A stretch of DNA of 64,000 nt, taken from the NCBI GenBank assembly GCA_013368325.1, contig JAACJK010000169.1, forward strand, positions 434,001-498,000, in the 5' to 3' direction. Numbering within the stretch: position 1 is the first letter of the stretch; the number at the start of each line of letters is the position of its first letter. A program made the translations under genes and the position numbers. The notes under the pieces are model-generated. The model saw nothing but the letters and a program-made list of their open reading frames with translations, was not told the origin of the DNA and made no database searches. This DNA comes from Ephemerocybe angulata (taxonomy: Eukaryota > Basidiomycota > Agaricomycetes > Agaricales > Psathyrellaceae). This document shows positions 28,545 to 60,729 of the stretch, piece after piece.

Positions 28545-29088
28545 ATGTCCACTGCAAAACACTTTATGAACGCCTCGTCCCCTTCCCCATCCACCGCATG
28601 TCCTCTTCCCTCACCATTCACTGCAATGCAAGATAGAAGCAATCCTACCTACATCTCAGAACCGCCACAGCGCCCCACTGGCGCAGAGCACGGCGTACCA
28701 AACCCACGCGCAGCACAGCACATCATCGTCGTCCGCTCGACGTCATACCACTTCCACCAGGCGGGGAACGTAAACATCGGCGCGAATAACGGTGAGTTCT
28801 ACGTTCTATCCTGCCTGCCCTTTGCCTTAACACTATACTAATGACCAATCACTTTCCCCACCAGGATTATTGTACCAAACTCAAGTCGACGATCCGCGAG
28901 GGAACATCAGTCGCGATCAGGACGCCCTGCGCGGTCCGTGTATTTCGGAGGAAAGGCGAAACGGTCCAGGGAGGCCGGGTCCACGGATCCGCGTGATGCT
29001 CAGGCGCTTCCTGCAGCGAATTTCTACTCGCCAGATGATGAACGAGCAAGGCTCACCCCCGTTCTGTCCAACCAAGGTTCAAGAATGA
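28545..29088 (+). CDS. GNV family protein A
   Basis: Exons 28545-28791 and 28865-29088 (73 nt intron, GTGAGT...CCAG, phase 1) give 156 residues. Family layout: a variable Pro/Ser-rich N-terminus; a hydrophobic strand (HIIVVRSTSYHFHQ); the core motif GNVNIGANNG at residues 74-83; the intron, exactly after the motif; then GLLYQTQVDD, GNISRDQDAL and a basic helix (IRVMLRRFLQR) near the C-terminus. No signal peptide or known domain. The gene faces the intact SOD gene tail to tail with 136 bp between stop codons, the same arrangement as in all repeated units. The core resembles RHIM/HET-s-type amyloid motifs; function is unknown. Confidence 0.75.
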
Positions 29089-29224
29089 AGAACACCCGAG
29101 GTTAGGTTACGCAACGGCAGACATGACATTGTCAACGTTTTTGTAGGTATACTATACATGCTTGCTTAGTTTCACTTCCTTCATGTTCTTCTCGCTAGCG
29201 CATCGCTCCGATGGTCAATCGCGT

Positions 29225-30003
29225 CTAGAGCTTGGAGTTCCCGGAAGCCTCGACGAGGCGGGCCTCAGCCTCCTCGAAGTTGATGACATTCCAGATGGCG
29301 TTGAGGTACTACAATCCCAATCGCATTAGCAAACATAATCAGCAGAAACTCGAGTCAAAAATACGCACGTCAGGCTTAACGTTCAAATACTGCAAGTAGA
29401 ACGCATGCTCCCAGATATCGACACCAATGATGGGAACAAGGCTAAGGAGGGGATCCTGGTTGGGCGTAGTCGCGATCTCAAGACGCTTAGTCTGAGTGTT
29501 GTACCCGAGCCAGCCCCAGCCGCTGCCCTGGATGCCAAGGGTCGCGGTGTTGAACTCCTTCTTGAGCGCGTCGAGCGAGCCCCAGACCTGCTCGATGGCG
29601 GACTTGAGCGGGCCGTCCTTGAGGACGCCGCCGTTGCCCTTGCCAGCAGCCGCAGAGGGCGCGAGGTTCTTCCAGAAGAGGGAGTGGTTAATGTGGCCTG
29701 GGCGGGAGATTAGATTAGATCAGATGTGGATGGATAGGGGCGGGCGATGACGCGGCCGGCGAGATGTGATCTGATAGCGGGTGGCGAACGAGAGTACTCA
29801 CCTCCGCCGTTGAACTTGAGCGCGGCCTGGAGGGCGATGCGCTCCTTGGGCGTGGACGCCTTGCTGTACGCGGCCTCGGCGGCGTTGAGGGCGTTGACGT
29901 AGGTCTGGTGGTGCTTGGTGTGGTGCAGGGTCATGATCTGCTCGTTGATGTAGGGCTCGAGCGCATTGTAGGCGTAGGGAAGGGGAGGGAGAGTGTTGGA
30001 CAT
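29225..30003 (-). CDS. superoxide dismutase, Mn/Fe family (intact parent copy)
   Basis: Exons 30003-29802, 29697-29369 and 29308-29225 with introns of 104 and 60 nt give 204 residues. It converts superoxide to oxygen and peroxide. Metal-ligand segments are all present: His27 in [16 protein letters not shown], the [11 protein letters not shown] segment, and [12 protein letters not shown] with Asp and His. GSGWGWLGY fits the Mn type. No mitochondrial presequence is evident in front of SNTLPPLPY, so a cytosolic form is likely, though an upstream start in the same open frame cannot be fully excluded. This is the only undamaged SOD in the window; seven broken copies lie at 36.5-54.4 kb in the opposite orientation. 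The first intron has repeated CTAATC branch-like words. Confidence 0.93.
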
Positions 30004-30009
30004 TGTGTT

Positions 30010-30450
30010 TTCTGCTGGGCGGGTTAGCAGGGTAGGAGGCAGGAGGGATGGGGACGTACGGTGGTGGTGGTGGTTAAGAAGAAAGGAGGAAGGCGCGAGC
30101 CTGATGCGATATGTTATCGGCTGACCAAGGCGATTCGATTGCACAACGAGGATGATGTCATCAATCACGCTTCCGCGCTTCGACGCGTTTCTCGGCGCGT
30201 CCATTAAGAAAACATGCAGCATGGATAGAGATTGTTATGCGTATAAATGGATTGACATGGGTTGGATAGAAACGTGGAGGCAGAAGATGCGGTGAAGTGA
30301 TATGCATACCATCTAATCGAAGTGTCCGTGATGCTAGGTTTATGATACTGAGCTGAAAATGCAATAACGAGGTCGTGAATTTAGCCCCATTCTATCAATC
30401 TTTTTGGAATTGAGGGTGCCCTAGAGAATGGCCCAGCCGCCCAGTGGTCG
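30010..30450. other. SOD 5' flank
   Basis: Intergenic DNA between the SOD start and the far end of the interrupted GNV gene. A GT-rich (GGTGGTGGTGGTGG) run near 30060 is in the SOD leader. No gene seen. Confidence 0.5.
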
Positions 30451-30659
30451 CCTACCCTCTACCTCGCGCCTCGAAGCGAGGCCGCTGCTGTCGCGCCCGC
30501 TCGACTCGATCGCCGTTGGAAGAGCCTCCCGATGACCTTCCAGAATGTCGACGTCCCTTGACTTCGAGCTTCCTGTCCATAATCACCCGCAAGTGTGTGC
30601 GTGCTGGACGGCACACCGCCTTGGTATACCTCGCCTATACACGTGGACGAGACGATCGT

Positions 30660-30883
30660 TGGAGTCGTCCAAACCTCCAGGCGCGTGTCTAGGTGAGCAG
30701 GCTCGGGATCTCGTCGAGCAGATGGAGGGGGAAGGCAAGGCTTGTTGTCTATTCTCGGCGCGCTGGCGTCGTCTACATGGCGTCGTCTACATCGGTAAGT
30801 GATCCCATCAGCATCTAATCTAATCTCAGTCCGTGTCTAGGTACGAGGAGGAGAGGTGGCGAGTGCCCACAGGCACTGCCACA
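30660..30883 (-). repeat. 3' LTR of the 2.2 kb element
   Basis: Pairs with 32636-32859 over 224 bp. On the plus strand it contains a GTAAGT...TCTAG segment with CTAATCTAATC inside, which looks like a small intron; whether it is used is unknown. Confidence 0.85.
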
Positions 30884-30896
30884 TGTGCCCACCCCC

Positions 30897-32270
30897 CTAG
30901 TAGCAACGCCCTCGTTGCGTCCGCGAACTCGTTCCCCAATCATGGGCTGTCGGAAGTCGCTCGCTCGCAACGGGGCACCGGTGCATGCACGAGCAAATGA
31001 GCATAGGGAAGTGGTCTGGGCGTCGGATTCGGTCGTACTCTCGGGCGCGTCGATAATTCCTCTGGGTGCGGGATGAATGCTGGCGCGGGGTACGTCGAGC
31101 ACGTCCATTTCGGTGGTGGATGCTCGTCCAAGGGTCGGGGCGTAAGGGGCTGCGTAAACCGGAGAGATCGCGAATGTAGGCAGGTGTCGATGGCTTCTCC
31201 GCTGTGTCATTGAACATGGGTTCTTGCGTATCATTCGTGTCACCGGCCCAATCGATAGGCGAGTTGATCTCGGCTGGTAGGCGAAGTGGTGGAAGAGGCG
31301 AAGCTGGTGATGGAGGCCGGGGTTGGTGGAAAACCGCCGGGGTTGTCAGTTCTGGAACTCGATGACACACGCTGGCGTCAGTCTGCGTAGCGGCTTCTAC
31401 TGAGGAATCCCGTAGATTAGTCGCTTCGGCGGAATGGAGTGGGTGTACTGCTGTGTCGTCGGAGTCGTCGGTCTGAGTCGCCATTTCGAAGGATGCCGGG
31501 GTGGGTTCGCGTTCGTCGTCAGTCTGGGTTCCCATCTCCGAAGAGATATGTAGCGCGAGAGTCGCCGGGGATGGACCTGAAGCTGGGTCTGGTTCTGCGA
31601 CGAGAGCCTTACGTGCACGTTCCTCGAGGATGCCAGATTGCTTTCCCCTTAGGAACGACATCTCTTCGAACATCTGGAGTCGCCGCTCATGTTTGCTGAT
31701 GTCCTTGAGTCTCCCTTTCGCTTCCTGGATGACGACGGTGAGCTCTGGCGGTATCTCGTTCGGGAAGTGCTCGGTGAGCGAGGCGCAGAGCTCGGTGATG
31801 GAGGGACTCGGGTCGACGAATGGAGAGGGAAGCGACGGAAGGCCAGGCGATTCGGGGTTCGGCGTCCAGAGGGCTCGTTCGGCTGCTACTCCCATGGCGT
31901 ACGCGGCGTCGTGAGTGGAATCGAAGCGTCGCTCGCAGCTCTCCATGAAGGTCGACACGGCTTGACCCATCTCCTGGAATCTCGCAGCCATTCTCCGCTC
32001 TCCAATCTCGAAGCCTAGTCGAACGCCGTGCTTCAGTGCTTCAGCGGCCAGCGGGTCGTCGAGCGACAGAGTCGCGCTATATTCTTTGAGCGAAGCGATG
32101 AGTTCGGCTGCTGGATCGAGGGGCGTCTTGGCGGGGGTCTCGGTGTGAGTCTCGGTGGGGGTTTCTGGTACCGGAGGAGCGTCGATAGGTGCTTCAGAGG
32201 CGTCGGTTTCTGTCAATTTTGCCAAGGCCTTGTTGGCGCGCTGTCGCGCGCGCTTCCCGGGTGCAGGCAT
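30897..32270 (-). CDS. gag-like ORF of the 2.2 kb LTR element
   Basis: A single exon of 457 residues fills the element and ends at the polypurine tract. The N-terminus is basic (PGKRARQRANKALAKL), followed by a Pro/Thr/Glu stretch, a helical domain (about 50-230) and a Pro-rich, Arg-rich tail. Three copies of a TQTD motif appear (MGTQTDDE, MATQTDDS, AATQTDAS), which match the TQT core bound by dynein light chain LC8. There is no CCHC zinc knuckle and no enzymatic motif. A structural gag-type role is inferred from position; a captured host gene is the alternative. Confidence 0.6.
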   Translation of the reverse strand: MPAPGKRARQRANKALAKLTETDASEAPIDAPPVPETPTETHTETPAKTPLDPAAELIASLKEYSATLSLDDPLAAEALKHGVRLGFEIGERRMAARFQEMGQAVSTFMESCERRFDSTHDAAYAMGVAAERALWTPNPESPGLPSLPSPFVDPSPSITELCASLTEHFPNEIPPELTVVIQEAKGRLKDISKHERRLQMFEEMSFLRGKQSGILEERARKALVAEPDPASGPSPATLALHISSEMGTQTDDEREPTPASFEMATQTDDSDDTAVHPLHSAEATNLRDSSVEAATQTDASVCHRVPELTTPAVFHQPRPPSPASPLPPLRLPAEINSPIDWAGDTNDTQEPMFNDTAEKPSTPAYIRDLSGLRSPLRPDPWTSIHHRNGRARRTPRQHSSRTQRNYRRAREYDRIRRPDHFPMLICSCMHRCPVASERLPTAHDWGTSSRTQRGRCY

Positions 32271-32635
32271 CGTATCAGAAGAAAATCGGTGGTCTATCGG
32301 GGTGTGGAATTAGGTGTTCGGTATTCTGTAGTCGCTGTATTCGCCCGGTTCGCTGTATTCGCTGTATTCGCTGTTTGTTCGCTGTATTCGCTGTATTCGC
32401 TGTATTCACTGTGGTCGCTTGTTGAGTCGGTTGTATTTAGAGGTTGGCCTCCTAATATTGCTTCGAATATGCAAAATGTCGGTTTGGTGAGGCCTCGTAG
32501 TTCCCTTCTGTGTCCTGGTAAAGCCTCAGGTGTCGACGAAGTAGCTCAGGAGCTGGGGAACACGTGTGTCGAAGAAGCAGGTAGAACGTATGCTGGCCGA
32601 TCGGAACGCCGTCGAATCACACTCTCATCACCAGA

Positions 32636-32859
32636 TGGAGTCGTCCAAACCTCCAGGCGCGTGTCTAGGTGAGCAGGCTCGGGATCTCGTCGAGCAGATG
32701 GAGGGGGAAGGCAAGGCTTGTTGTCTATTCTCGGCGCGCTGGCGTCGTCTACATGGCGTCGTCTACATCGGTAAGTGATCCCATCAGCATCTAATCTAAT
32801 CTCAGTCCGTGTCTAGGTACGAGGAGGAGAGGTGGCGAGTGCCCACAGGCACTGCCACA
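32636..32859 (-). repeat. 5' LTR of the 2.2 kb element
   Basis: 224 bp, TG...CA, matching 30660-30883; followed on the minus strand by the tRNA primer-like site. Flanked at 32860 by the target duplication TCGT and GNV intron sequence. Confidence 0.85.
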
Positions 32860-33359
32860 TCGTCAACACTGGAGGTATGGACGAGTGTGGTGACAGGTGT
32901 ACTGACCGTGGTTTGTTCCCATGTTGACGTTCTATGCTCGGTGGACGTGGTGCGTCGAATGCGAGGGCGGGGGTATGAGGATAATGATGGGCAGGCCTGT
33001 GCTGCGCTCGATGTTGATGACCTGCCCTTGGGGTACGAAGGCAGCAGCGCCATTGTACGTATGGGTATGGCGATGATGATGCTTTCCCGTCGTGTTATGT
33101 TCGACATAGTCTGATCCTCGACGTATGAGGGGAGCAGAGGGGCGAGACGATGAGGAAGGGTGGATGGCGGAGTCGTCGAGGTCTTGTGGGTGGAGAGACC
33201 ATGGATTGGACGTCAACCAGTCAAGGTCGGATGTGGCTGTATCCCACGTGGTCTCCATAGTGGGGGGGATTCGCTGTTGTAGCCATGAATGGAGTCATTT
33301 TCTTATGTATGGGAGGGTATACTGGCATAGTGGGGGCATCTGGAGCTCTCAACATTGCT

Positions 33360-34456: not shown

Positions 34457-34544
34457 CCCCCACCCGAGAGGAAGGGGGTAAGCGAACGAGAAAGGAAAAA
34501 ACAAACACAAGAAAGAATCAATCTCCCCCACCCAATCCAAACTC

Positions 34545-35609
34545 CTACTTCTTCTTCGTCTTCGGCTGAGACTTGCTGAGGTGATCGCGAAGTTCTTCTG
34601 AGATGAAGACCGTGGAAGAGGGCTCGTCGACGGAGGCCATGTTGGCCCGGACATTCATGCTATGCTGAATCGGGTCATAGTGCCAATCGTCATCGGACTC
34701 CGCGTCAGACTCCATGTGGACGAGCTTGGCATCCTCCTTCCCAGCGGCGCGAGCGCGACGAGCCTTGCGGGCATCCTGGATGATCTTGTCCTTCACCTTC
34801 TGTGGCATGTCGATGATGCACTTTGTCGAACGATGGCCAGGCCGCCCACAACGGTGGCAGGCATCACCACCTCGAGTGTTTCCCCAGTCGTAGTCAGAAC
34901 CAGCATCGTCGTCAGAGCTGTCACCCGCCCTGCGACGATACCCGTCCTTTCCCTTCCGCACGTAGAAGGCAGTCTCTCCCCCACCGTCCTTCAGCTTCCC
35001 GTCACGGTAGAAGTCGTCCAAGACCTTCTTGATGGTCTCGAGGGATGGGTCGGTCGACTGGGTGATGAGCGACGCACGAACAACGTCGAAGGAGGGGTGG
35101 AGGTGCATGAGAATGGAATCAGTGATGTCGACAGAAGGAGGCTTGTGGCCAAGGTCAGAGAGGGAGGCATGGGCATTGATGATGTCGTTGATATAGTCCA
35201 TGACAGGCTTGGAGGGATCGTGGATGGGGTTGTAGAGTCGACGCTTCAGCTCGAAGCGGAGGGCACGAGAGTCCCGGACGAAAGCCTGCTTGAGTGACTC
35301 CCAGACCTGGGCTGCGGTCTGACGAGGAACGGCAGAGAACGGCTTGATGTGATTGGTACGAATGGCGTTGGATGCGATGGTCTTGTAGATTGTCGCAATG
35401 ACCTCCTTGTCGGTAGCCAGCCAGGGAGCGTAGAGGCTGGACTCAGTGGCCTGATTGGGAGCGACGAGCGTACCATCCAAATGCCCCATGAACGACGAGC
35501 ACATCACGAACGTCATCTCCACCTCCCGGATCCAAGCACCATAGTTGTCTTCAGTGAGGCGGTTCTGCGGATCGAACGTCTTGAGCGCGGTGAATATAGA
35601 GTCGGACAT
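34545..35609 (-). CDS. Gag polyprotein, Copia/UBN2 type
   Basis: One exon of 354 residues. Residues 1-200 match the layout of Copia-type Gag (LTEDNYGAWIREVEMTF near residue 18, then AAQVWESLKQAF and LKRRLYNPIHDP). A CCHC zinc knuckle for RNA binding is complete at Cys251, Cys254, His259 and Cys264 (CHRCGRPGHRSTKC). An acidic linker precedes it and a Lys-rich end follows. The frame stops with no protease, integrase or RT domain behind it. Intact frame, paired LTRs without visible differences and intact knuckle suggest recent activity with enzymes supplied by another Copia element. Confidence 0.92.
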   Translation of the reverse strand: MSDSIFTALKTFDPQNRLTEDNYGAWIREVEMTFVMCSSFMGHLDGTLVAPNQATESSLYAPWLATDKEVIATIYKTIASNAIRTNHIKPFSAVPRQTAAQVWESLKQAFVRDSRALRFELKRRLYNPIHDPSKPVMDYINDIINAHASLSDLGHKPPSVDITDSILMHLHPSFDVVRASLITQSTDPSLETIKKVLDDFYRDGKLKDGGGETAFYVRKGKDGYRRRAGDSSDDDAGSDYDWGNTRGGDACHRCGRPGHRSTKCIIDMPQKVKDKIIQDARKARRARAAGKEDAKLVHMESDAESDDDWHYDPIQHSMNVRANMASVDEPSSTVFISEELRDHLSKSQPKTKKK

Positions 35610-35718
35610 GTCGTGGTGATTGAGTGGTGATTGGTGGATTGATCAGATAAGAAAATTGACGAAAGAAGAAAAGCGATGGATGTTTTGTGAATGCGCGGAT
35701 AGCGCGGGGCTCATAACT

Positions 35719-36548: not shown

Positions 36549-37297
36549 ATGGAGAGCACGTTCCCTTCCCCTCTCTAGTCACACAGTGCGCTCGAGCCCT
36601 CCATCTGCGAGCATAGCATAACGCGGCACCACACCAAGCACCACCAGACCTACGTCAACGCCCTCAACGCCGCCGAGGCTGCCTACACCAATGCATCCAC
36701 GCCCAAGGAGCGCATCCCACTCCTGGCCTCCCTGAAGTTCAACGAAGGAGGTGGGTTCGCCCATCCCCGCTATCAGATCGTGCAGCGCACGTCGTCGTCG
36801 TCGCGTATCGCCCTATCCCATCATCTAATCTAATCTAATTTCGGCCTCCTCCATCGTCTCCCAGGCCACATCAACCGTTCCCTCTTCTAGGACCTCGCGC
36901 CCTCCGCCGCCGCCAACAAGGGCACCGGCGGCGTGCTCAAGGACGGCCGCTCAAGTCCCCCATCGAGCAGGTCTGGGGCTCGCTCGACAGCATCCAGGGC
37001 AGCGGCTGGGTCTGGCTAGGGTACAACACTCAGACTAAGCGTCTTGAGATCGCGACTACGCCCAACCAGGACCCCCTCCTCAGACTCGTTCCTATTATCG
37101 GTGTCGATATCTGGGAGCATGCGTTCTACTTGCAGTATTTGAACGTTAAGCCCGACGTGAGTATTTCTGAGTTCAGCTCGCATCGATTGTGGGGTGCTAA
37201 TCGATTGGTTGTAGTACCTTAACGCTATTTGGAACGTTATCAACTTCGAGGAGGCTGAGGCCCGCTTGTCGAGGCTTCCGGCAACTCCAAGCTCTAA
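36549..37297 (+). pseudogene. SOD copy B, broken
   Basis: Matches the intact SOD in order: exon 1 ([20 protein letters not shown] is fully kept), the first intron with CTAATCTAATCTAA, exon 2 and exon 3. Breaks: codon 10 is TAG where the parent has TAC; one base is lost in KDGPLKS; and about 40 bp covering [12 protein letters not shown] are deleted before [10 protein letters not shown]. No intact product is possible. Confidence 0.9.
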
Positions 37298-37454
37298 GCG
37301 CGATCCACCAACGGAGCGATGCACGAGCTTGAAGAACTGAAGGAAATGAAACCAATTGAACATGTATAGTATACCTACAAAACCGTCGACAATGTCATGT
37401 GTGCCGTTGCATAACCTAACCTTCGTCTCCTCATTGGTCGATTCTTTCATCGGG

Positions 37455-38127
37455 TTAGAGGTCAGACGGAAGTAAGCTCGGCTCGTCTGCGCTTTGGCGG
37501 GTAGAAATTGCCTCTTTACATCGCTGAAAGAGTCGCCGGAGCATCGCACGCATGCCTGAGTACTTCCTCGTCTCTTTCGTGTCCTCCGATGCGTCGGTGT
37601 CGCGTAGCGCGTCGCGGCTTAGGTTGCCCTTCCCTGCAAGATCGTCGATCTTTGCTTGGTGCAGTACTCCTGGAGGCGAGCGAGATATGTACATACGCCG
37701 CGTCAATAAGATACGAAGAGTTGGGGAACAGATTAAGTTGCCTACCGTGGTTCGTGCCGATGTTTATATTCCCGGCGTGGTGGATGTGGTATGACGTCGA
37801 GCGGACGACGATGATCCGTCGCGGTTTGCGGGCGCGAGGTATAGCGCGGGATTTGATTTTGTTGCCATTGGGGTGCTGTGGCGATTCTGAGATGTGCGTC
37901 AAATCGCTAGGCTGCAACACGTCTTCTCCGTCGCCAACTTCCCCCCTGCAACCCAGCCGATGAAACCAGCGAAACCGCTTGGCTGGAAGGTGCTGCTCTG
38001 TTCGACCTGCCGTGCGTGTTATCCTCCTTAACCCATCCCTCTTCTGACCCACGTCTCCAGCAGTCATTACCGCTATCTTGCCAATTGATGAGGGGAGGTG
38101 ATTTTCTGTTTGTGTAGGGCTTGACAT
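37455..38127 (-). CDS. GNV family protein B
   Basis: Exons 38127-37746 and 37669-37455 with a 76 nt GTAGGC...CCAG intron in phase 1 give 198 residues. Core: RRIIVVRSTSYHIHHA then GNINIGTNHG. After the intron come GVLHQAKIDD, GNLSRDAL, SEDTKETRK and the basic helix MRAMLRRLFQRCKEA. The N-terminal 75 residues differ from the other copies (MSSPTQTENHLPSS onward), suggesting the 5' end was joined to new DNA. The gene is tail to tail with broken SOD copy B, 157 bp between stops. The frame is fully open although its SOD neighbour has decayed. Confidence 0.7.
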
Positions 38128-42509: not shown

Positions 42510-42955
42510 GCCAGATCAACCGCTCCCTAGGACCCCGCGCCCTCCGCCGCCGCCAACAAGGGCACCGGCGGCGTCCTTAAGGACGGCCCGCTCAAGTCCG
42601 CCATCGAGCAGGTCTGGGGCTCGCTTCAAGGAGTTCAACACCGTGACCCTCGGCATCCATCGGCTGGGGTTGGCACGGGTACAACATACACACACACACA
42701 CACACTTCGCGACCACGCCCAACCAGAATCCCCTCCTCAGCCTTGTTCCTGTTATTGGCGTCGATATTTGGGAGCACGTGTTGTACTTGCAGTACTTGAA
42801 CGTTGGGCCCGATGTGCGTATTTTTGACTGGGTTTTACGGCGCGCGTGTGCTAATGCGATGTGGATTGTAGTACCTTAACCCTATCTGGAACGTTATCAA
42901 CTTCGAGGAGGCTGAGACCCGCCTCGTCGAGGCTTCCGACTCCCCCAAACTCTAG
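42510..42955 (+). pseudogene. SOD copy C, 5'-truncated
   Basis: Begins at the exon 2 acceptor (CTTGCAG near 42509); exon 1 is absent and the hAT MITE lies just upstream. The SLFWKNLA codons are damaged, a deletion removes most of SLDALKK, and the [11 protein letters not shown] segment is replaced by a (CA)n run. [15 protein letters not shown] and the last exon ([20 protein letters not shown]) remain readable. Confidence 0.88.
42686..42705. repeat. (CA)n microsatellite in SOD copy C
   Basis: About nine CA units replace codons of the parent gene, direct evidence that this copy is non-functional. Confidence 0.9.
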
Positions 42956-43092: not shown

Positions 43093-43560
43093 CTAGGTTG
43101 GACAGGACGGGGTTGGGCCTTGCTCGTCTGTCGTTCGGCGTGTAAAGATTCTTTCTTTCCATCGCTGGAGGAGTTGCCTAATCATCGCGCGGATTCCTGG
43201 ACCCTTCGTCCCCTTTCGCATGTCCTCCGAGATACACGGACCGCGCAGGGCCTCCTGATTGCGACTGATGTTTCCTCGCGGTGCAAGATCATCGACCTTC
43301 GATTGGTATAATAGTCCTGCAGAGCGTCTCGTCATTAATATGGTGCTAATACGAAGGGGTGGCCAAAGGGGAGGCGGAGGAGAGCGTAACACACCATTGT
43401 TCGTGCCAAAGTTTACGTTCCCCGCCTGGTGGAAGTGGTATGAAGCCGAGGGCGAGACCACGATAATGTGTTGCGCTGCATGTGCATGGGGTTGTGCGAT
43501 GGTAAAAGTTATGCCATTGGAGTACTCTGGCGACTCTGTAGGGATGGTTTTATCCTGCAT
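43093..43560 (-). CDS. GNV family protein C
   Basis: Exons 43560-43395 and 43316-43093, 78 nt intron in phase 1 (GTGTGT...GCAG; length divisible by three and without a stop, so an unspliced reading is also open). 129 residues. Core: HIIVVSPSASYHFHQA then GNVNFGTNNG; exon 2 gives GLLYQSKVDD, GNISRNQEALRGPCISED, IRAMIRQLLQRWKERI. The start is the MQD that is internal in protein A; the homologous upstream ATG is one base out of frame here, so the N-terminus is shorter. Faces SOD copy C with 137 bp between stops. Confidence 0.7.
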   Translation of the reverse strand: MQDKTIPTESPEYSNGITFTIAQPHAHAAQHIIVVSPSASYHFHQAGNVNFGTNNGVLRSPPPPLWPPLRISTILMTRRSAGLLYQSKVDDLAPRGNISRNQEALRGPCISEDMRKGTKGPGIRAMIRQLLQRWKERIFTRRTTDEQGPTPSCPT

Positions 43561-44416: not shown

Positions 44417-45266
44417 ATGGAGAACAGGTACTCTCCCCTCCCTCAGTCGCACAATGCGCTCGAGCCCTACAGCTCCGAGCGGTTCATGAGACCTACGCCA
44501 ACACCCTATACGTCGCTGAGCTAGTATACACCAAGCTTCCCATGCTCAAGGGGCGCATCTCCCTCTAGGCCTCCCCGAGGCCTCCCCCAAGGTCGACGGC
44601 GGAGATGAGCCTTCGAACGTCCCCGCTATCACATCTCCCATCTCGCCGTCCGCCGCGTCATCGCGTCATCACCCGCCCATCCACATCTGTTCTACTCTAG
44701 TCGACATCTCGTAGACCGCTGGCGCAGAACCTCGCATCCTTCGCTGTTGCAGGCAAGGGCAACGGTGTTACTCTCGAGGTGAGTGCTCGCCCTGCCAGCG
44801 CCCACCTTCCCCACTATCACATCGCCCCAATCCCGCCATCTAATCCCGCCGAGTGCAAGGGCAACGGCGGCGTCCTCAAGAATCGCCCGCTCAACTCCAC
44901 CATTGAGCAGGTCTCGGGCTCGCCCGACGCGCTCAAGAAGGAGTTCAACACCGCGACCCTTGGGATCCAGGGAAGCGGCCGGGGCTGGCTCAGGTATACC
45001 ACCCAGACTAAGTGTCTTGAGATCGCTACCACGCCTAACCAGGATCCCCTCCTCAGCCTCGTTCCTATTATCGGTGTCGATATCTGGGAGCACGCGTTCT
45101 ACCTTCAGTACTTGAACGCTAAGTCCGACCTGCGTATTTCTGACTTCACATCGATTGTGGGTGTTAATGTGGTTGTGATTTTAGTACCTTAACGCTATCT
45201 GGAACGTTATCAACTTTGAGGAGGCTGAGGCGCCTCGTCGAAGGTTCCGGCTCCTCCAAGCTCTAA
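44417..45266 (+). pseudogene. SOD copy D, broken
   Basis: Exon 1 is heavily decayed (HHTKHH lost). Exon 2 is readable from [13 protein letters not shown] to [18 protein letters not shown], but the second donor is CTGCGT instead of GTGCGT, and exon 3 has lost bases in EARLVE (GAGGCGCCTCGTC). GSGRGWLRY also alters the conserved GSGWGWLGY. Confidence 0.9.
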
Positions 45267-45407: not shown

Positions 45408-45943
45408 CTATCTTCTCGTCCTTGAGCCCGTGTTGGAGGTAAACTCGGTGCTTTGGCGGGTAAAAATTCTCTCTTTCCATCGCTGGAAGAGTCGCCTCAG
45501 CATCGTACTCATTCGTGGGCCCTTCCTCGTCTCTCGTGTGTCCTCCGATGTCTCGATGTCGCGCAGTGTGTCGTGGTCATGATTAACATTGCCCCCCGTC
45601 GTAGGATCGTCGATTTTTGTTTGGTACAGTACTCCTGGGTGAAAGATGACTCGTCATTAGTATAGTGTTGATGCGATAGAACATAACACTCACCATTGTT
45701 CGCGCCGAAGTTTACATTCCCGGCCTGGTGGAAGTGGTATGACGTCGAGCGCGACACGACGATAATCCGTCGCGCTCTGCGGGCGCGAGGTATGGTGCGG
45801 GATTTGCTATTGGGGTGCTGTGGCAATTCTGAGATGTATGTAGGAATGTTTTCATCTAGCGTTGTAGTGAATGGTGGGGAATCCGGAGGGGACATACGGT
45901 TGACGGGCAGGGGAACGAGGCTTTTCTGAGATCCATAATCCAT
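45408..45943 (-). CDS. GNV family protein D
   Basis: Exons 45943-45694 and 45634-45408 with a 59 nt GTGAGT...CCAG intron in phase 1 give 158 residues. N-terminus Pro/Ser-rich (MDYGSQKSLVPLPVNRMSPP); core RRIIVVSRSTSYHFHQA then GNVNFGANNG; exon 2 GVLYQTKIDD, GNVNHDHDTLRDIETSEDT, then MLRRLFQRWKERIFTRQ. GNVN occurs a second time in exon 2. Faces broken SOD copy D, 141 bp between stops. Confidence 0.75.
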
Positions 45944-47763: not shown

Positions 47764-48544
47764 AGAGCACGTTCCCTTCCCCTCTCTATCCACACAATGC
47801 GCTCGAGCCCTCCATCTACGAGCATAGCACAACCCTGCACCACACCAGCACGATCTGACCTACGCCAACACCCCCAACGCAGCCGAGCTTGTCTACGCCA
47901 AGGCATCCACGCCCAAGGAGGGTATCCCACGCCTGGCCTCCCTGAAGTTCAACGCCGGAGGTGAGTTCGCCCTTCCCCGCTATCAGATCGTGCATCGCCG
48001 CGTCATCCCCCACCGCCCCTATCCACATCTGATCTAATGCAATCTCCCCGCCCATCCCCTCCTCCATCATCTCGCAGGCCACAACCACTGCCTCTTCTAG
48101 GACCTCGCACCCTCCGCCGCCGCCAAAAAGGGCACTGGCGGCGTCCTCAAGGACGGCCCGCTCAAGTCTGCCATCGAGCAGGTCTGGAGCTCGCTCGACG
48201 CGCTCAAGAAGGAGTTCAACACCGCGACCCTTTGCATCCAGGGAAGCGGCTGGGGCTGGCTCGGGTACAACACTCAGACTAAGCGTCTTGAGATCGCGAC
48301 TACGCCCAACCAGGACCCCCTCCTCAGCCTCGTCCCTATCATTGGTGTTGATATCTGGGAGCACGCGTTCTACCTTCAGTATTTGAACGTTAAGCCCGAC
48401 GTGCGTCTTTCTGACTTCTGTTCATATCATTTGTGGGTGCTAATGTTATGGTGATTGTAGTATCTTAACGCTATCTGGAACGTCATCAATTTTGAGGAGG
48501 CTGAGGCCCGCCTCGTCGAAGCTTCCGGCAACTCCAAGCTCTAA
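47764..48544 (+). pseudogene. SOD copy E, broken
   Basis: The start codon is lost (ACGAAAGGAG replaces CAATGGAG of other copies). Exon 1 is frameshifted in the HHTKHH region. Exon 2 loses bases in FWKNLA (TTCTAGGACC), but from [13 protein letters not shown] through [18 protein letters not shown] and exon 3 ([16 protein letters not shown]) it is almost identical to the parent. Confidence 0.9.
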
Positions 48545-48685: not shown

Positions 48686-49343
48686 TCATCCTCGAACTTG
48701 GGTTGGACAGAATGGGGGTGAGCCTCGCTCGACAGACGGGATTTGGTGCATAGAAAATCTCGCTTTCCAACGCTGGAAGAGGCGCCTGAGCATGACGCGG
48801 ATTCCTGGACCCTTCCTCCCCTTTAGCGGGGCCTCCGATATATCCACGCCGGCCAACGCATCGTGGTCGTGACCGATATTGCCTGGGGTTGTAAGATCGC
48901 CGACTTGCGTTTGGTACAATAATCCTGGTGGGGAACGTGACTGGTCGTAAGTATAGTGTTTATGCGAGGGGGAGGCGAGATAGTGGGTAAAACTCACCAC
49001 CGTTTTGCCTGTCCTCCGAAACATCCGGACAACCAAGTGCGTTGTGGTCGTGACGGATATTCCCTCGCGTTGTAAGATCATCGACTTGCGTTTGGTACAA
49101 TAATCCTGGGGGAAACGTGGCTCGTCATTAGCATAGTGCTGATGCGAAGAGGAGGCGGAAGAGATCGTAAAACTCGCCATGGTTCGCGCCGAAGTTTACG
49201 TTGCCCGCCTGGTGGAAGTGGTATGACGTCGAGCGCACGACGATGATATGCTGTGCTGCGCGTGGGTGGGGGATGGTGTGGTCTGTGCCAGTGAGGTGCT
49301 GTGGCGACTCTGTGAGGTATGTAGGGACGTTTTTATCTTGCAT
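48686..49343 (-). CDS. GNV family protein E, exon 2 duplicated
   Basis: Exons 49343-49178, 49105-48998 and 48924-48686 with introns of 72 and 73 nt give 170 residues, all junctions phase 1. Exon 1 has HIIVVRSTSYHFHQA and GNVNFGANHG. Then exon 2 appears twice: first GLLYQTQVDDLTTRGNIRHD ending SEDRQNG, then GLLYQTQVGDLTTPGNIGHD continuing to MLRRLFQRWKARF. The two copies and the intron before each are very similar, so a tandem exon-intron duplication occurred and stayed in frame. The first donor is GCGAGT (a GC-AG intron) where relatives have GTGAGT; if it is not used, the gene fails. Faces SOD copy E, 141 bp between stops. Confidence 0.65.
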
Positions 49344-50509: not shown

Positions 50510-51296
50510 ATGGAGACCAAGTCCTCCCCCCGCCTCTGGGTACACGATTGGCTCGAACCTCACACCTTTTAGCGAGTCATGACGCTGCACCACACCAAAC
50601 ACAACCAGACCTCCGTCAACGCCCCAACTCCGCAGAGAGAACCTATACCAAGGCCTCCACGCCCAAGCAGGGCATCACCCTACAAACCATTATCAACTTC
50701 AATAGCAGAGGTGAGTTCTCCTTTCCGTCCTCCCCGCTGTCAGATCGTGCTTCGCGTTGCCGCGTCATCGCCCCTTTCCTATCATGCAATCTAATATAAT
50801 TTCTCTCCCATTCCTTCTCGCAGGTCAGAGCAGCCCTCCCTCTTCTGGAAGAACCTCGCGTCCTCCGCCGCCGCCAGCAAGGGCAACGGCGGCGTCCTCA
50901 AGGACGGCCCGCTCAAGTCCGTCATAGAGCAGGTCTGGGGCTCGCTCGACGCGCTCAAGAAGGAGTTCAACACCGCGACCCTCGGCATCCTGGGCAGCGG
51001 CTGGGGCTGGCTCGGGTACAACACCCAGATCAATCGTCTTGAAATCTCCACCACTCCGAACCAGGGCGCCTTAGTCAACCTCGTCCCCACCATCGGCGTC
51101 GATATCTGGGAGCATGCTTTCTACTTGCAGTACTTGAACGTTAAGCCCGACGTGCGTTAGCGATTTTTTCCTTTCTATCTGTTGTTGCTGTTGAACTGGT
51201 ATCATTGTGTAGTACCTCAATGCTATCTGGAACGTTATCAACTTCGAGGAGATGGAGGCCCACCTCGTCGAGGCTTCGGGCTCCTCCAAGCTCTAA
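50510..51296 (+). pseudogene. SOD copy F, broken
   Basis: Exon 1 keeps [16 protein letters not shown] then shifts frame; the normal start region is degraded. Exon 2 starts out of frame, so GHINHSLFW with a metal-ligand His is lost, though [20 protein letters not shown] to [18 protein letters not shown] and exon 3 are well kept. The GTGCGT donor of the second intron is intact. Confidence 0.9.
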
Positions 51297-51427: not shown

Positions 51428-52046
51428 TCACAGTCCAGTCATTCCTTGATCCTTGAGCCAAGGTTGGAGGGAAGAGGGGGAACCTGGCGATCTGCCTCTG
51501 GTTCGGCGAGCAGAAATTCCTTCTTTCCATTGCTGGAAGAGTCCCCGCAGCATCGTGTGGATCCCTAGACCTTTCCTCTTCTTTCGGGTGCCCTCCGATG
51601 TTTTCGGGCTTTCCAGGCTTGCCATGTCCCGACGAGGGCAACCCTCATGATTAACACTCCCCCTCCTCCGAATGTCGTCGACTTCCTCTTGGTATAGTGC
51701 TCCTAGAGGAGTGACCCGGTCGTCGATAATGTGTTGACACAAGGCAATGCAGAACATAACACTCACCATAGTTCGCACCAAAATTGACATTGCCGGCTTG
51801 ATGGATGTGGTATGACGTCGAGCATACGACGATGATGTGTTGCGCTGCGACGTGAGGGTGCGGTATCGTGTACTCTGTGCCATTGATATGCTGTGGCGAG
51901 TCTGTTGTGTGGTTATCGAGGTTCTGGTGGACGTTTGTAAGGGTATTTTTGTGTTGCATAGTCTGAGGTGGGAGGGGAAGTACGATCGGTTGGTGGGGGA
52001 AAGGAGCCTTTATGATACTACGTGCAAAGGTGTCTGCGGCATCCAT
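51428..52046 (-). CDS. GNV family protein F
   Basis: Exons 52046-51767 and 51702-51428 with a 64 nt GTGAGT...CTAG intron in phase 1 give 184 residues. Core: HIIVVCSTSYHIHQA then GNVNFGANYG; exon 2 GALYQEEVDDIRRRGSVNHE, TSEGTRKKRKGLGIH and TMLRGLFQQWKEGI, followed by a longer Ser/Pro/Arg tail. The N-terminal extension (MDAADTFARSIIKAPF) is unique to this copy. Faces SOD copy F, 131 bp between stops. Confidence 0.7.
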
Positions 52047-52049
52047 AGT

Positions 52050-53200: not shown

Positions 53201-53205
53201 TAGCA

Positions 53206-53800
53206 ATGGAGCGTAGGTTCTCCGAGTCTCCCTTCACCTTTATTCACAAGATGCGCTCGAGGTCCCATCATGACGCTGCTTGGACGCTGTACGCAACCGG
53301 AAGTACCCTCACACCCTGAACGTCACCGACGCAGCTTGCACCAAGGCCTTCACCCAGTTCAACAGCAGAGGTGAGTCCTCCCCAAGCCCTCCCGAGCATC
53401 CCCGCTATCCATGTCACCAGCGCCGTCGGCCGCGTCATCGCAATCGCCAGCCTCGTCCACTTCTGATCTCATCCAATCATCGACCTGTAGGTCATATCCG
53501 GCACTCTCTCTCCTCAGTCTCCTGTAAGAGAACCTAGTACCCTTCGCCGCCGCCAGCAAGGGCACAGGCGGCATTCTCAGGGACGGCCCTCTAGAGACCG
53601 CGATCAGACCTGCTAAGAAGCCTGGGCTCGCTTGCTCGATGAAGAGCTCATCACTACGACCCTCGGCGTTGAGGAACGGGGCTGGCTTGTGCACTGAGAT
53701 TGCCAGCACCCCGAACTGGGAGCCCCTGCAGTATGCTCAGCCCTCGTCCCCATCATCGGCGTCGATATTCGGGAGTATGCCTTCTATCTTCAGTGGTTGA
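53206..53800 (+). pseudogene. SOD copy G1, highly decayed
   Basis: Pieces in order: an ATGGAG start-like region, the TTCAACAGCAGAG|GTGAG exon 1 end, CCGCCGCCAGCAAGGGCACA and GGCGTCGATATTCGGGAGTA (from VDIWEH). Ligand residues and frame are lost. Confidence 0.8.
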
Positions 53801-53829
53801 ACGTCATGACCCCCGCCAACCCTTATCGA

Positions 53830-54361
53830 AGAGCAAGGGAAAGCAGGTTTCTTCCCCTACTATGGTCCTACGATGTGCTCGAGCCTTACATCACCGATTA
53901 GATTATGATCTTGCACCACACCAAGCACCCTCGGACTCATTCAATGTCTCCGAGGGGCGCTTTGCCCATTCTCCCGCGATCACATCCCCCACCCCGTCGT
54001 CGTGCGTGCCACCGCCCACCCGGCCCACACCCGTCCCCAACCCCATCTCCATCTCAGGAGAACCTCCTCGTCCACCGGAGGCAACCTCAAGGACGACCTG
54101 CTCAGGGCGCGATCGAGCAGTCTGGGGCTCGCTCGAGCCGCTCAAGGCGATCAACGCTGCGAAGGTCGGCATTCTGGGTATTGCGACCACGCCGAACCAA
54201 GGCCCACGTCTCAGCCTCGTGCTCCTTGGTGGCTGAATGTTGAGGCTGATGCGCGTCACTCGCTGTTTAGCTTGTGCCTCAGTGCGGTCTCGAACGTTAT
54301 CAACTTCGGAATGGCCAAGACGAAGACCCGCTTCCGTCAAGGCTTCCGCCCCAAGTTCTAA
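53830..54361 (+). pseudogene. SOD copy G2, highly decayed
   Basis: A second fragment directly after G1: TACGATGTGCTCGAGCCTTA (exon 1), an in-frame TAG, LHHTKHP, then scattered exon 2 pieces (GCGATCGAGCAGTCTGGGGC, ACCACGCCGAACCAAGGCCC) and AACGTTATCAACTTCGGAAT from exon 3. It ends 112 bp before the stop codon of the SRPK-like gene, in the slot where other units have GNV. Confidence 0.8.
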
Positions 54362-55826: not shown

Positions 55827-55829
55827 CGT

Positions 55830-56700
55830 TCTGCACGGCGAGTGGTGCGAGTAAGTTTCAAGGCGAGAGGGTCTGATTCAAGGAGATGGGCGAGAGGGAT
55901 AGTATGTAGGTAGGACTGTGTTGTGATTCGCGAAGGTTGGAGATGGGAGTCCGTATGCCAGGAATTCGCGACAGATAACGCGTGTTGAGCTCGGGTTTGA
56001 GGCTCTACTACTGATATAGTGGCGCGAGATGATCGGGTGGAGAACCACGCCTCGGGCTGCGGGGTGGTGCACCCATCGATCAAAATTACGCAAAATGATA
56101 GGACAGGAGACACCTCGTTTTCTACAATAGATGTGTTGCTAGAGAAGATGACCATGACCATGAAGAGAGAATACCAGACATACCCGAAGCGTGGCCCTAG
56201 AGTGGTGTCGCATAAGATTCCAGTGCGGCTTTTAGACTGCTCATCAACGAATGTTCTTTGAATCATCTTTAAGGTTTGATAGCATTGCCTAGACCACAGA
56301 AAAGTGATTTCCGATGATAAGTCTAGATTGTCCATAAAGCCCCCAACGCAAGGTCAGGCCTGGTGAGGCACATATGAACCGTCGCTAGCCACAGCCTGGA
56401 ACACCGCCAATGAAATACAAACATTCCTGACCCCCGGAGAGTCGGCAAGAGGCATCCAATTAAAGCAATTTTCGGATGTAAAAACAATGAAGGCTACTTT
56501 ATTAGAGGCCGGTCGAATCATAAATCCTTCTCTATTCAACACCGATAAGTTCGTTCTCAGAAGTAATTACAATCAGTGAAAACGTTAACGCAAGTGGCCT
56601 TTACACCCGACGGTCTCTCCTCTCAACCCGAGGTCACACTGAAGTGAGCAAACTATTCTGGTGCCTCCAACAACATACCGTACACGACTCAAGAAGTTTA
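55830..56700. other. no recognisable gene
   Basis: A minus-strand open frame (55823-56335) overlaps the upstream side of the kinase-like gene but has no family feature and no start logic with it. Confidence 0.5.
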
Positions 56701-56724
56701 CGCTCCTCAAACTGGTAAGAAATG

Positions 56725-56732
56725 TATAAAAG
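56725..56732 (+). promoter_or_regulatory. TATA box of the 56839 gene
   Basis: TATAAAAG about 110 bp upstream of the ATG at 56839. Confidence 0.65.
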
Positions 56733-56838
56733 GAGGAGGACTACCTTGCCAAAGTCTTCACGGCTGGTCCGCTTACACCACTCACTCAATTCTATCTACC
56801 ACCGAAGCGCTGGTCGCACCTTACCTTTACTTGCCATC

Positions 56839-57652
56839 ATGCAGTTCTTATCCTTCAGAAACGCTTTTCTCGCCCTCGCCACGGTTTGCCTTATTAATTT
56901 CACCTTCGCCTTGCCTTTGTTGTAAGTTACATCCAGGATATGATCTGGTGCCAATTAATATGCGATGCTTACATCTGGGCGCAGGCGGAATAAAAACAAT
57001 GATCTTGTCGGTCGAGATTATGGTTCAGATGCCCTAACGACGTTGGTTGGGAGAGACAATGACTTCCACTCCCGATCGCTTTCCCAGCGAGACCTATGGC
57101 GTGGTACCGACTCGCGCGTGTACACTCGGTCTCCCAATGGACTCCAGTCGCTCGAGGAAGCCCTGCTCGAAACTCGCAAGAACCACCCAATCAGGGTCAC
57201 AGCGAAGGCTAAACAAGATATCAAGAATATGTTGCCGCCGAACCACACTAGGCAGGACTACAAGAATGCAAAGCAGTGGCACAGGGATCAAGTTCAGCCC
57301 CATATGAACGCGCATGGCGCTACTTCGGCCACCATCAAGTCAGTGCCACCATCCATAGTTCTGCCCATCGCGATGCTCGTTAATTGCTGATCGGCCTTTC
57401 ATTTAGGCGAGGAGCCCATTCAGGAGGATTTAATCGTCATGCGCCCCCACACATCACGGCTAAGTTGAAGGGACCGAACGGGGTTATTCATACACAGTAC
57501 ACGAACTCGAAGGGCCAGCGCAGAACGGCGGTATGTACACGCTTGCCAAATCTTAATATTACTCTTCTTATTAGCCCCTACAGGATCAACACCATGTTTC
57601 CGTTCATGGGGCTCCGCATGGGGCCACGATACCCCACACTGGACCTCACTGA
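56839..57652 (+). CDS. small secreted His-rich protein
   Basis: Four exons (56839-56921, 56985-57338, 57407-57530, 57584-57652; introns 53-68 nt) join without frame conflict to 209 residues. Residues 1-24 form a signal peptide (hydrophobic AFLALATVCLINFTFA). The mature part has an internal near-repeat (NDLVGRDYGS and TTLVGRDNDF), then a helical, basic stretch (SLEEALLETRKNHPIRV, KAKQDIKNMLPPNH) and a His/Gly-rich C-terminus (DQHHVSVHGAPHGATIPH). No known domain. The His-rich tail could bind metal. Secreted effector-type or wall-associated roles are possible; neither is shown. Confidence 0.75.
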
Positions 57653-57659
57653 TGGCTGA

Positions 57660-58410
57660 CAGAAATACTGTACGATATAGTTACTAGAACCGATATATAC
57701 CGTCGTGCACGCACGTACTAGTATTGGGTAATGGTATAGTTGTGGGAAGTGTATAGATAAGTTGTGTGAAGTGGGGTTTATACGGAATGACAGGAACGAA
57801 ATGTCAGTCCGTAGATGAGGAGAGTCGCGCTGTTCTTGCGGGGTTGAGAATCGCCGGGTAGGCCTTCATGCAAGTTTGAAATATCCGCCACTGGCAGGAT
57901 GATGTCATACCCGAAATTCGACGTGTCCCTCGGCGCGTTCCGTCATGGGCGCTTATGTCAACAGGCGCTGCTTTAGGACAGGAAGGAGAGAGCATAGTGC
58001 GGCGAAGGAAAGGCAGTGCTCTACAGAAATGTGGCCAACGTATGCTAACCTCTGAGAGTGCGCGAGGCCTGATGTGCTCCACTGTAACTCCCGGCTTCCA
58101 TACCATCCTTCGCGCGAAGGTCTCTGAGTCGCCACTGCAATCCAAACCAGCAGCCGAACATAACGCGTTTGCTTTAGAAAGGTTCTGCCTGCGCAGTAAT
58201 AAAAAAGGATTCCAACTCAGGCGTGTAAAATTTGTCGCCCAGCGGATGACAAGGTATACAGGTAGCGCGCTTACCATACTTAACTTGGTACCGAACATGG
58301 GCTTGTCAGTTTGGCTCTTGATTTAAGCGAGTTAATTTACGGGGGCCAGCGACAGAAGTTTGACAGAAGTTAAGTTCAGCACAGCACTTTTTAACTACGT
58401 CTGCCTGGGA
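57660..58410. other. no recognisable gene
   Basis: A minus-strand open frame at 57804-58298 has no domain or conserved structure. A TGGGCGCTTA word lies at 57946-57955. Confidence 0.5.
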
Positions 58411-58419
58411 AAGTCACCC

Positions 58420-59077
58420 TTACGGTCTTCGAAAGAGCCTCGCAATCCCTGTCCATACGCCCTTCTTCCTTCCCCGACTAGGAGTCAGACTGTCCTCCAC
58501 TCTCTCCATAGCACCCATCGGATGAGAACTCGGTAGGGGATACGTGTCCGCGGCGGGCTCCGACCCGGGGTAAACGTACGGTATACAGTTGTCACGAAGG
58601 CGGCGGGTGCATCCGTCGTGGCCATAATCACCCTTGCACCCCCTCCAAGAATCCTCAGTCTCGTGTTGATATATTTCACCTGAAGCAGGACGTTACCATC
58701 TCCTGAACATTTGACGAGAGGGCCAGACCCTATTACTCACCATAGTTCGACCCAAGGTTGACGTTGCCTGCACGACCGAAACGTACGTTCTGCGTCGAAT
58801 GCGAGGGAGGAATAACGACGACGATAATCTGTCCTGCGTTGCGCTCAATCTCAATCACCTGCGCTTGAGGCACACAGGGAATGGTGTGTCGTCGACGACC
58901 GTGGGACGCTTTGACATGTTCAGGCGCTTGCGCGGATGCAGGGCAGTGACCGCCGAGGACGTTGGTTGGGCAGTCGTGCTGGAAGTAGTCGATCGCATCA
59001 TCGTTGTTCTCTTGGAGGTGGGTTGCCCATGGATTGGACTTTGACCAGTCGAGGGAGGGGTCTAAGGAGGAGGACAT
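58420..59077 (-). CDS. GNV family protein H2 (distant clade)
   Basis: Exons 59077-58741 and 58679-58420 with a 61 nt GTGAGT...TCAG intron in phase 1 give 198 residues. The N-terminus has the clade motif LDWSKSNPWATHLQE; then QAQVIEIERNAGQIIVVVIP, a strand leading into RAGNVNLGSNYG. Exon 2 begins GEIYQHETED (family pattern G-x-x-Y-Q) and ends with a basic segment, GRKKGVWTGIARLFRRP, matching the LRRLFQR helix of the array copies. The acceptor was chosen because it alone restores both the GxxYQ start and the basic end in one frame; an earlier AG would give a different tail. The ATG at 59077 was preferred over an in-frame one at 59239. Confidence 0.7.
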
Positions 59078-59244
59078 GCAGGAGCTGGGGAGAAAAATTG
59101 GCGGGGGAAGCAGACGTGTCGCATCCGGTCGCAGAGGGGCAGCATTATGGGAGCGGGCGGAAAAGGTTGCAACTGTAATTTCCCTGTCCGTTTCCTTATA
59201 TACAACGAGCTGTGTAGCGGTTACCGGTGATGGTTGCATCCCTT

Positions 59245-60115
59245 ATTACTAACCTGGAATGGCATCAGATTTGGGGCGGTGTCTGTACTATTAACACACA
59301 ATTTCATGATGTTACACGCTGTACTTAATGCATTCCTTGCCTGAGTGGGATGGGAATCTGAATGGTTCATATACCGATTAACTCTTCCGAGCTACTTCGG
59401 AGGGCTCAACGTCCACTTGAGGTGAGGGAAGGGCACAGAGTCACAGACGCAGTGAGATCATATGTAAGTGCCATGTTAAGCGCCCAAGGAGGCGTTATTG
59501 TGAGCGCTTATAGTACATTGCGCAGACGTTGACATATCAGAAACTGCGATCTACATACATACTTGCTCGAAACAGGCTGCACTTTCCGTGATACCGGATG
59601 ACGGTATACATTCCGCGCCAGTACTAAGCCTGCGAGCCACGTCCAGGACGGTTCTTGCGTTACTTACTTCAGCCGTAGCCATAATTGTGAAATAGTGATT
59701 TGGCATTGTGGGCTCTGTGCTTCCTGGAGACCTGCTAAGGGATACTACTTGTGAGAGACCGACCGTGCTGCTGGGTCGATGTCGGGTCGGTGAGTCGTCC
59801 CAGCCAATGGCTGACGCTCGCGCACCAAAATTTTTTGCGTGTACAGCAACCATTAACCTGTACCCCTCTACGGTCAAAGGTTCTTGCCACCGCAGACGCT
59901 CCTGTCTTGGTCCCCGGGCGTACTCAGGAACTCTGTGGCAAAATATTTTTTTGCCCAAAGATTGTTCACTCAGTTTGGTGATGCTTCAGGAATGCCAGTA
60001 CCATTGTCCTTTCGGCCCCCATTCGGCTCCAGTATATTGGCAGGAACCCAATTGCCATCCCCTCCCCAAGTGCGCGCAAGATCACACAGCCACATCTTAA
60101 TACCGCTATCCTCAG
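59245..60115. other. intergenic stretch between divergent GNV genes H2 and H3
   Basis: No gene recognised. A TTAAGCGCCCA word lies at 59476-59486. The stretch must hold the promoters of both neighbours. Confidence 0.5.
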
Positions 60116-60121
60116 AGAACG

Positions 60122-60729
60122 ATGGACCGCATCACAGACATTGACTTCGGGGTGCCCCTATCGGCTGGCGGTGGAAACACTGCTTACCCATCCTTTGAAC
60201 ATCACACACACACACACACCCCGTGTGATTGGAGAACACAAAATCCGTGGGCAGCCCACCTTCCAGAAAGGGGTGGCAGAAGCAACTCCGCAGAGTGGAC
60301 GAGCCCGACGGACGCGCCTCTGGACATACGTCACCAAGCGCATCATGCCGCACCTCCCGGATCAAGGGATCAAGTAGTCGAGATCAAAGCAGACGCCGGA
60401 CAGCCTATCCATGCTATCATTATCCTCATCCCCTCGCCGTCGCAGTCATATCAGACGCACCACATACACAGCGCAGGGAGTGTGAACTTCGGCTCGAACT
60501 ATGGTGTGTCCCCTAGCTTCTCCCAAAATCTGCTCAACCTGCCGCTGACAAATCCATTCTAGGTGAGTTTTACCAAGGGAGGATCAAGACTCGGACAAGG
60601 AGAGGTGATGGAGAAGGGCAAGGAATGGCGGAGGGCTGTAGAAGTTCAAATCTTTTGAAGGAAAAGGTCGGTCGGAAGAGTGAACGAGGTGTGCGAAGAG
60701 TCTTTGAGTGGCTCTTCAAGAGGTCGTGA
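60122..60729 (+). CDS. GNV family protein H3 (distant clade)
   Basis: Exons 60122-60503 and 60563-60729 with a 59 nt GTGTGT...CTAG intron in phase 1 give 182 residues. Clade motif CDWRTQNPWAAHLPE; then DQVVEIKADAGQPIHAIIIL and HHIHSAGSVNFGSNYG. Exon 2 starts GEFYQGRIKT, is strongly basic, and ends RGVRRVFEWLFKRS, the family C-terminal helix. Codons near 60204 include a CACACACACACA run encoding HTHTHT. Head to head with H2. No signal peptide or known domain. Confidence 0.72.

Follow-up and report, generated by a model that had tools for sequence, protein, structure and literature searches.

A motif shared between a cluster of small genes and the N-termini of NACHT receptors in the mushroom Ephemerocybe angulata

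In the NOD-like receptor (NLR) systems described from fungi, an N-terminal motif of the receptor passes its beta fold to a like motif on a partner protein (PMC5485727, PMC7885112, PMC7889193 and PMC9815663, cited here and below from excerpts). Motifs of the PP/RHIM type have a G-Phi-Q-Phi-G core centred on Q (PMC7885112), and PUASM is written FxGxGxQxxGxGxF (PMC9815663). The motifs NLR05/08/22/29/44 are N-terminal in agaricomycete NACHT receptors, with dozens per strain, and their description stresses three hydrophobic residues and a C-terminal G[DN] pair (PMC9815663). According to the excerpts of the same 2022 survey, motif pairs occur in few basidiomycetes only, and a scan of MLKL-like proteins found no case in which a neighbouring NLR bore a similar motif. 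Here we analyse a stretch of 64,000 nucleotides of E. angulata (contig JAACJK010000169.1, positions 434,001 to 498,000; hereafter the window) that contains a cluster of small genes, the GNV genes, and we compare their conserved core with the N-termini of the NACHT NLRs of this fungus. In searches of an open library, read at the level of titles and abstract beginnings, no listed paper mentioned this motif or a motif-bearing symmetric NLR exon, and none was presented as an NLR study of E. angulata.

The GNV core is part of an 18-residue motif, [VIF]xx[AV]xN[VAG]xPhi-G-x-N-x-G^x-Phi-x-Q, where ^ marks a phase-1 intron. The best-conserved part of the GNV proteins is a hydrophobic strand followed by Phi-xx-A-x-N-Phi-x-Phi-G-x-N-x-G-x-Phi-x-Q. 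DNA patterns were searched for in the 58.7 Mb genome, and the resulting counts are lower bounds. A degenerate core pattern that did not require the intron gave at least 25 exact matches against 0 for the reversed pattern, which argues that the core is not due to chance. GT[AG] followed the core directly in 22 of the 25, the exceptions being GNV loci E and H1 and C77:117521. These matches comprised nine loci of the window, nine NLR genes, four genes of one other family and three Gly/Pro-rich or unclear genes. When the donor was included and one mismatch was allowed, at least 38 genome matches were obtained (2 with the reversed control): 14 upstream of NLRs, 10 within the window, 8 belonging to other genes (L063-L066, L068, L070, L071 and L074) and 6 in AT-rich sequence. 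The six AT-rich matches were set aside as copies of a single repeated sequence, one 28-mer on contigs C5, C7, C167, C168 and C169 that is perhaps a repeat or organelle sequence. Two matches to the first pattern (L001, L002) were rejected for lack of family context. Early matches on C185, C190, C196 and C202 showed no motif on a scan of their sequence; three on C190, one of them adjoining a NACHT match, read NKLGNVNIGEYNNPKR, without the G-x-N-x-G part.

The 14 NLR-associated matches were located just upstream of a NACHT receptor on the same strand. Eight of them lay 327-339 bp from a Pfam NACHT match (Poisson p 7e-18 with 1 kb windows, kinship among loci being ignored), and the other six (two on C60, one each on C126 and C28, C140:307249 and C179:178829) were assigned from open frames and a search with the NLR protein P0001. 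The regular expression with donor found the motif in 8 of 30 NACHT loci, to which deposited proteins add two, L033 and L037. The predicted splicing of the motif is seen in deposited NLR proteins, such as P0001 with NAIFGDNHG^NLSQ. Among the 120 NLR proteins listed of 1142, the strict motif was present in 36, namely in 35 of the 69 E. angulata proteins, a lower bound since at least five of those counted as lacking it start or break inside the motif, in 1 of 13 records without a species label and in 0 of 38 from other named species. On the evidence of these 120 listed proteins, the motif seems to be specific to a lineage and not a spurious pattern. In the same set, the N-termini of many related NLRs from other species look, by eye, like FxxAxxFxIxGG, a different pattern; a strict expression for the common FxINGGxF form matched 0 of the 120.

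The GNV and NLR motif profiles, built from hand-picked alignments of 8 and 20 sequences, matched in hhalign with 96.75% probability and a score of 44.0, over 23 columns that reach beyond the intron site as far as the Q. The highest score among 100 column-shuffled controls was 16.2, and the reversed control scored 6.35. At the sequence level, then, the GNV proteins and the NLR N-termini share one motif. The GNV genes had been described as a previously unrecognised family. No description of them was found and only E. angulata proteins were matched, but the core is shared with NACHT NLRs; the GNV genes are therefore not an isolated orphan family, and an unrelated orphan origin was rejected. At the N-terminus of these NLRs the motif stands where an effector domain would otherwise be. 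It also occurs in separate proteins of the genome, encoded by the window genes and by L063-L066, L068, L070 and L074, for which a partner role may be considered, so that the core is common to GNV proteins, NACHT NLRs and at least three other protein groups. The motif-bearing NLR of L075 is followed, some 2 kb downstream, by one such carrier, L066, which gives NAVLGRNYG^HIGQ by reading of the splice. By residue score, the nearest NLR motifs were P0107 and P0030 (both in the top three for A, C, D, E and F), P0031 and P0042/P0043 for B, P0045 and P0017/P0023 for H2 and H3, and P0008, P0010 and P0002 for G; the motif of P0030 is identical to that of F at 12 of 18 residues.

The motif set comprised 48 distinct sequences, of which 32 were from NLRs, 9 from GNV genes and 7 from other carriers. 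Both G and the final Q were invariant in 48/48, and the two N were kept in 45 and 47; the expression that selected the NLR rows partly demanded Q and G, so that these residues do not count as independently invariant in those rows. D followed the core G in 23 sequences and N in 0. The central core position was occupied by S, N, I, V, T, H, L or M.

Nine GNV loci had been placed in the window by the preliminary description, and all nine were found there, eight readable and one broken; a tenth motif-bearing gene, G, had been missed. On the plus strand are A (28545..29088; exon 1 from 28545 or 28626 to 28791, exon 2 28865-29088) and H3 (60122..60729; exons 60122-60503 and 60563-60729). On the minus strand are B (37455..38127; exons 38127-37746 and 37669-37455), C (43093..43560; 43560-43395 and 43316-43093), D (45408..45943; 45943-45694 and 45634-45408), E (48686..49343), F (51428..52046; exon 1 from 52046 or 51959 to 51767, exon 2 51702-51428) and H2 (58420..59077; 59077-58741 and 58679-58420). 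The alternative starts of A and F are second in-frame ATG codons further in, at 28626 and 51959. Gene E consists of 49343-49178, a duplicated exon 2 (49105-48998) and 48924-48686; here intron and exon 2 together are duplicated in tandem, with both phase 1 and the reading frame preserved, and the first donor is GC. The broken locus H1 (about 32900..33258, minus strand) reads HRA*NVNMGTNHG, with the stop immediately 5' of the core. Gene G (23056..24290, minus strand) has an uncertain start codon (24290, 24284 or 24191), exon 1 to 23768, an intron at 23767-23718 and exon 2 at 23717-23056. Its core and exon-2 start read NVSFGDNHG^HLDQ, and it ends in a basic C-terminus, KKRGVKRLIRKWLGYRVK.

In A-F, H2 and H3 the intron is 59-78 nt long, GT-AG (GC-AG in E) and directly 3' of the core, and the phase 1 claimed for it was borne out in 8/8 readable loci. 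The exon-2 start G-x-x-Y-Q applies to seven of these eight, B having G-V-L-H-Q instead. The DW-x3-NPW motif attributed to the distant members is present in H2 and H3, and in H1 by reading of the sequence.

Among deposited proteins, P0122 matches A, with the same MSTAKHFM start and a different C-terminus, and P0123 is identical to the predicted 198-aa model of H2. P0121 and P0124 are relatives under another locus-tag prefix, which presumably marks a second assembly of E. angulata. The profile search proposed earlier as a check on the family gave four protein matches at E <= 1, all of them from E. angulata; no deposited model of B, C, D, E, F or H3 was among them. A single-member protein search with D (14 candidates) found no relative, and a PDB sequence search with D gave no match. 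The five proteins scanned against Pfam (C, D, H2, H3 and G) had no match above the cut-off, and Rfam gave 0 matches. These observations support a real small-gene family, but the earlier view of it holds only in part, since the family is better read from its sequences as small proteins with an NLR signalling motif.

Selection across A-F appears to fall mostly on that motif. Mismatch at codon positions 1/2/3 was 0.188/0.033/0.287 for strand, core and Q, 0.362/0.339/0.410 for the linker, 0.380/0.331/0.388 for the N-terminus and 0.617/0.463/0.591 for the tail, so that linker and N-terminus showed little contrast between positions 2 and 3, unlike the motif. Whole-gene pairwise ratios of nonsynonymous to synonymous substitution rates among A-F were 0.23-0.68. 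The duplicated unit is a GNV gene plus a convergent Fe/Mn superoxide dismutase (SOD) gene. The SOD gene beside A (29228..30003, minus strand) is readable at full length in three exons, the middle one matching Pfam Sod_Fe_C at 5.1e-27. The copies on the plus strand beside B (36549..37298), C (42558..42952), D (44417..45262), E (47846..48541) and F (50510..51293), five of the six, carry stops, frame breaks or losses, and the six GNV genes of the units are all readable. Because GNV A-F are readable and constrained in the motif while the SOD copies beside B-F have decayed, the GNV motif is taken as retained after tandem duplication. Weak SOD remnants, with no GNV gene noticed alongside, lie beyond F (53528..54221, plus strand).

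The exon structure around the motif was compared among its carriers. In the NLR loci where the protein allowed the preceding exon to be placed, the upstream intron was of phase 1 in 10/10; one of these ten (L029) rests on a record without species and two share a single protein. In four more protein-locus rows no upstream exon could be placed. The downstream intron of the NLR loci is of phase 1 too, and the motif exon is therefore symmetric (1-1), with a length of about 16-24 codons. Non-NLR carriers were judged by splice signals alone, allowing all phases and YAG acceptors. A phase-1 upstream solution was found in seven of the eight (L063-L066, L068, L070 and L074); it was the sole phase for four, and L063, L065 and L066 also offer phase 0. 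Phase 2 was a solution in none, and L071 gave no solution at all. In the GNV genes, the hydrophobic strand, the core and the start codon are all within exon 1. We infer that the motif may have spread by exon shuffling. This is less firm than the homology of the motif, because the GNV genes have only the downstream motif intron in common with the NLRs, and the exons of the other carriers were placed by splice signals. A wider proposal, that an amyloid-type motif on a symmetric 1-1 micro-exon was inserted in frame into the NLRs and into several unrelated families of a single mushroom lineage, that frame-neutral skipping switches the receptor off and that the GNV proteins are dedicated partners, is tentative, and we hold it to be somewhat improbable as a whole.

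Two of the other carriers deserve description. L063-L066 form a four-member family in which the motif exon is followed by GTI[VI]Q... and by further conserved stretches, which in L065 had no Pfam match. In the Gly/Pro-rich L068 (G000:C22:929700-931400), a predicted exon FNGSHDFNINNGTFNSVAGDYH directly precedes the motif exon. This exon resembles the common N-terminus of basidiomycete NLRs, and L068 seems to have two signalling-type motifs on consecutive predicted exons.

For the GNV proteins themselves, we lean towards a role as downstream partners (adaptor or effector) of NLR receptors, acting by homotypic beta-polymerisation in self/non-self or antimicrobial cell-death signalling. They fit the partner side, as they bear the motif, have no other domain recognised by Pfam in the five proteins scanned and apparently have no globular domain. 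Polymerisation, receptor-partner contact, membrane action and cell death are the steps we infer. An activated, oligomerised NLR would align its motifs into a beta-arch (amyloid-type) seed, onto which GNV proteins would add via their matching motif. The assembly could bring the basic C-terminal segments together at a membrane or other polyanion, and the outcome would be receptor-to-partner cell-death signalling, in self/non-self recognition or antimicrobial defence.

Several results weigh against this partner role. No NLR was found on C139, the contig of the window, among 81 and 83 NLR matches, an arrangement unlike that of classical NLR/effector pairs, whose genes are adjacent. Pfam recognised no known effector domain in the five GNV proteins scanned. 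Profile searches of the PDB with the GNV and NLR profiles matched no amyloid, and AlphaFold gave H2 (P0123) no fold (mean pLDDT, its per-residue confidence, 34), which we count here as well, uninformative as it is. The C-terminus, described earlier as basic and amphipathic, is basic by charge in 9/9 models (best window anywhere in the protein), but its amphipathicity exceeded that of its own shuffles at P<0.05 in three of nine (B, D and E). In A-F the basic segment is under mild constraint (codon mismatch 0.246/0.231/0.363). The deposited models of A and P0121 diverge from the predicted ones after ...DALR and lack the basic C-terminus. An extra intron in exon 2 (28865-29088 in A) would remove that C-terminus and shift the frame, and the second intron of these models may be real alternative splicing. 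Because of the low count for amphipathicity and of these two deposited models, the case for GNV proteins as executioners is weak.

The same features could fit decoys made of little but the motif, which would cap or poison polymers of NLR motifs and whose tails would be of minor importance, like the CARD-only and pyrin-only proteins of animals. Selection mostly on the motif, several small copies per genome and the lack of a Pfam effector domain agree with decoys, but a basic segment closes H2, H3 and G and is nearly unchanged between H2 and P0124, and we judge this explanation unlikely. The motif could instead be an ordinary protein-protein or localisation motif of the NLR group, without amyloid polymerisation. 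The PDB and AlphaFold results are compatible with this, and the amyloid nature is proposed by analogy alone; against it, a short N/G/Q motif at the NLR N-terminus stands where fungal amyloid motifs stand (PMC9815663, excerpts) and is common to separate proteins, which makes such a motif rather unlikely. That the GNV genes are remnants of pseudogenes, or artefacts of prediction that yield no protein, might be argued from the broken H1, the GC donor and duplicated exon of E and the six of eight readable genes without a deposited model among the profile matches. Purifying selection on the codons of the motif, the consistent phase-1 splicing of eight of the nine loci first noted and the relatives annotated under a second locus-tag prefix make this very improbable. 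A beta-hairpin related to PQQ-type propeller blades was rejected and seems to us hardly credible: the GNV profile matches designed 'Cake' propellers (6tjh and relatives, whole-sequence E down to 8.8e-15), but 0 single stretches of those chains pass alone, each GNV protein has one hairpin-like stretch and no tandem blades, and the NLR profile does not match these chains.

In this one mushroom genome a receptor group, matching small proteins and a seemingly portable exon occur together, which opens receptor-partner templating in basidiomycetes to a direct test with peptides. Placing a signalling motif on a symmetric exon of its own would also be an easy way to exchange the outputs of NLRs.

Other features of the window were as follows. 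At 7841-10874 on the plus strand, a TPR protein (Pfam TPR) precedes an open frame whose CHAT domain matches Pfam at 2.1e-35; CHAT has been tied to fungal gasdermin activation (PMC10197012, excerpts). Near-identical direct repeats of about 200 bp (30660-30880 and 32635-32862) flank a 470-aa minus-strand open frame. A Copia-type retrotransposon gag frame (Pfam Retrotran_gag_2, 1.5e-14) is at 34545-35642 on the minus strand.

By analogy, the motif resembles fungal amyloid signalling motifs. HET-s has N-ladders, arc glycines and a hydrophobic core (PMC5485727), and the GNV/NLR motif is alike in its N, G and spaced hydrophobic residues. The NWD2-HET-S pair (HRAM/HET-s), in which a receptor motif templates the partner, has the logic proposed here as well as this spacing; it differs in that each GNV protein has one motif and Pfam found no HeLo domain. 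HRAMs are repeats of about 21 residues, paired on the partner and with G[DN], where each GNV protein has a single motif, and the whole set of 48 motifs has G-D in 23 and G-N in 0. PP/RHIM motifs are similar in their short core with G and a hydrophobic-polar-hydrophobic-G order, but membership was rejected, as none of the 48 distinct motifs has the central Q. The definition of PUASM did not fit the columns of the motif alignment by eye. The closest likeness in position is to NLR05/08/22/29/44, N-terminal in NACHT receptors as here, where a hydrophobic strand precedes G-[DSPAT]-N; the comparison is with their published text description, from excerpts, and identity is possible. Tuber melanosporum likewise diversifies NLRs via tiny exons (PMC9815663, PMC10197012, in the parts cited), but there 3-bp exons vary the sensor end, whereas in E. 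angulata a symmetric 1-1 exon carries the N-terminal motif.

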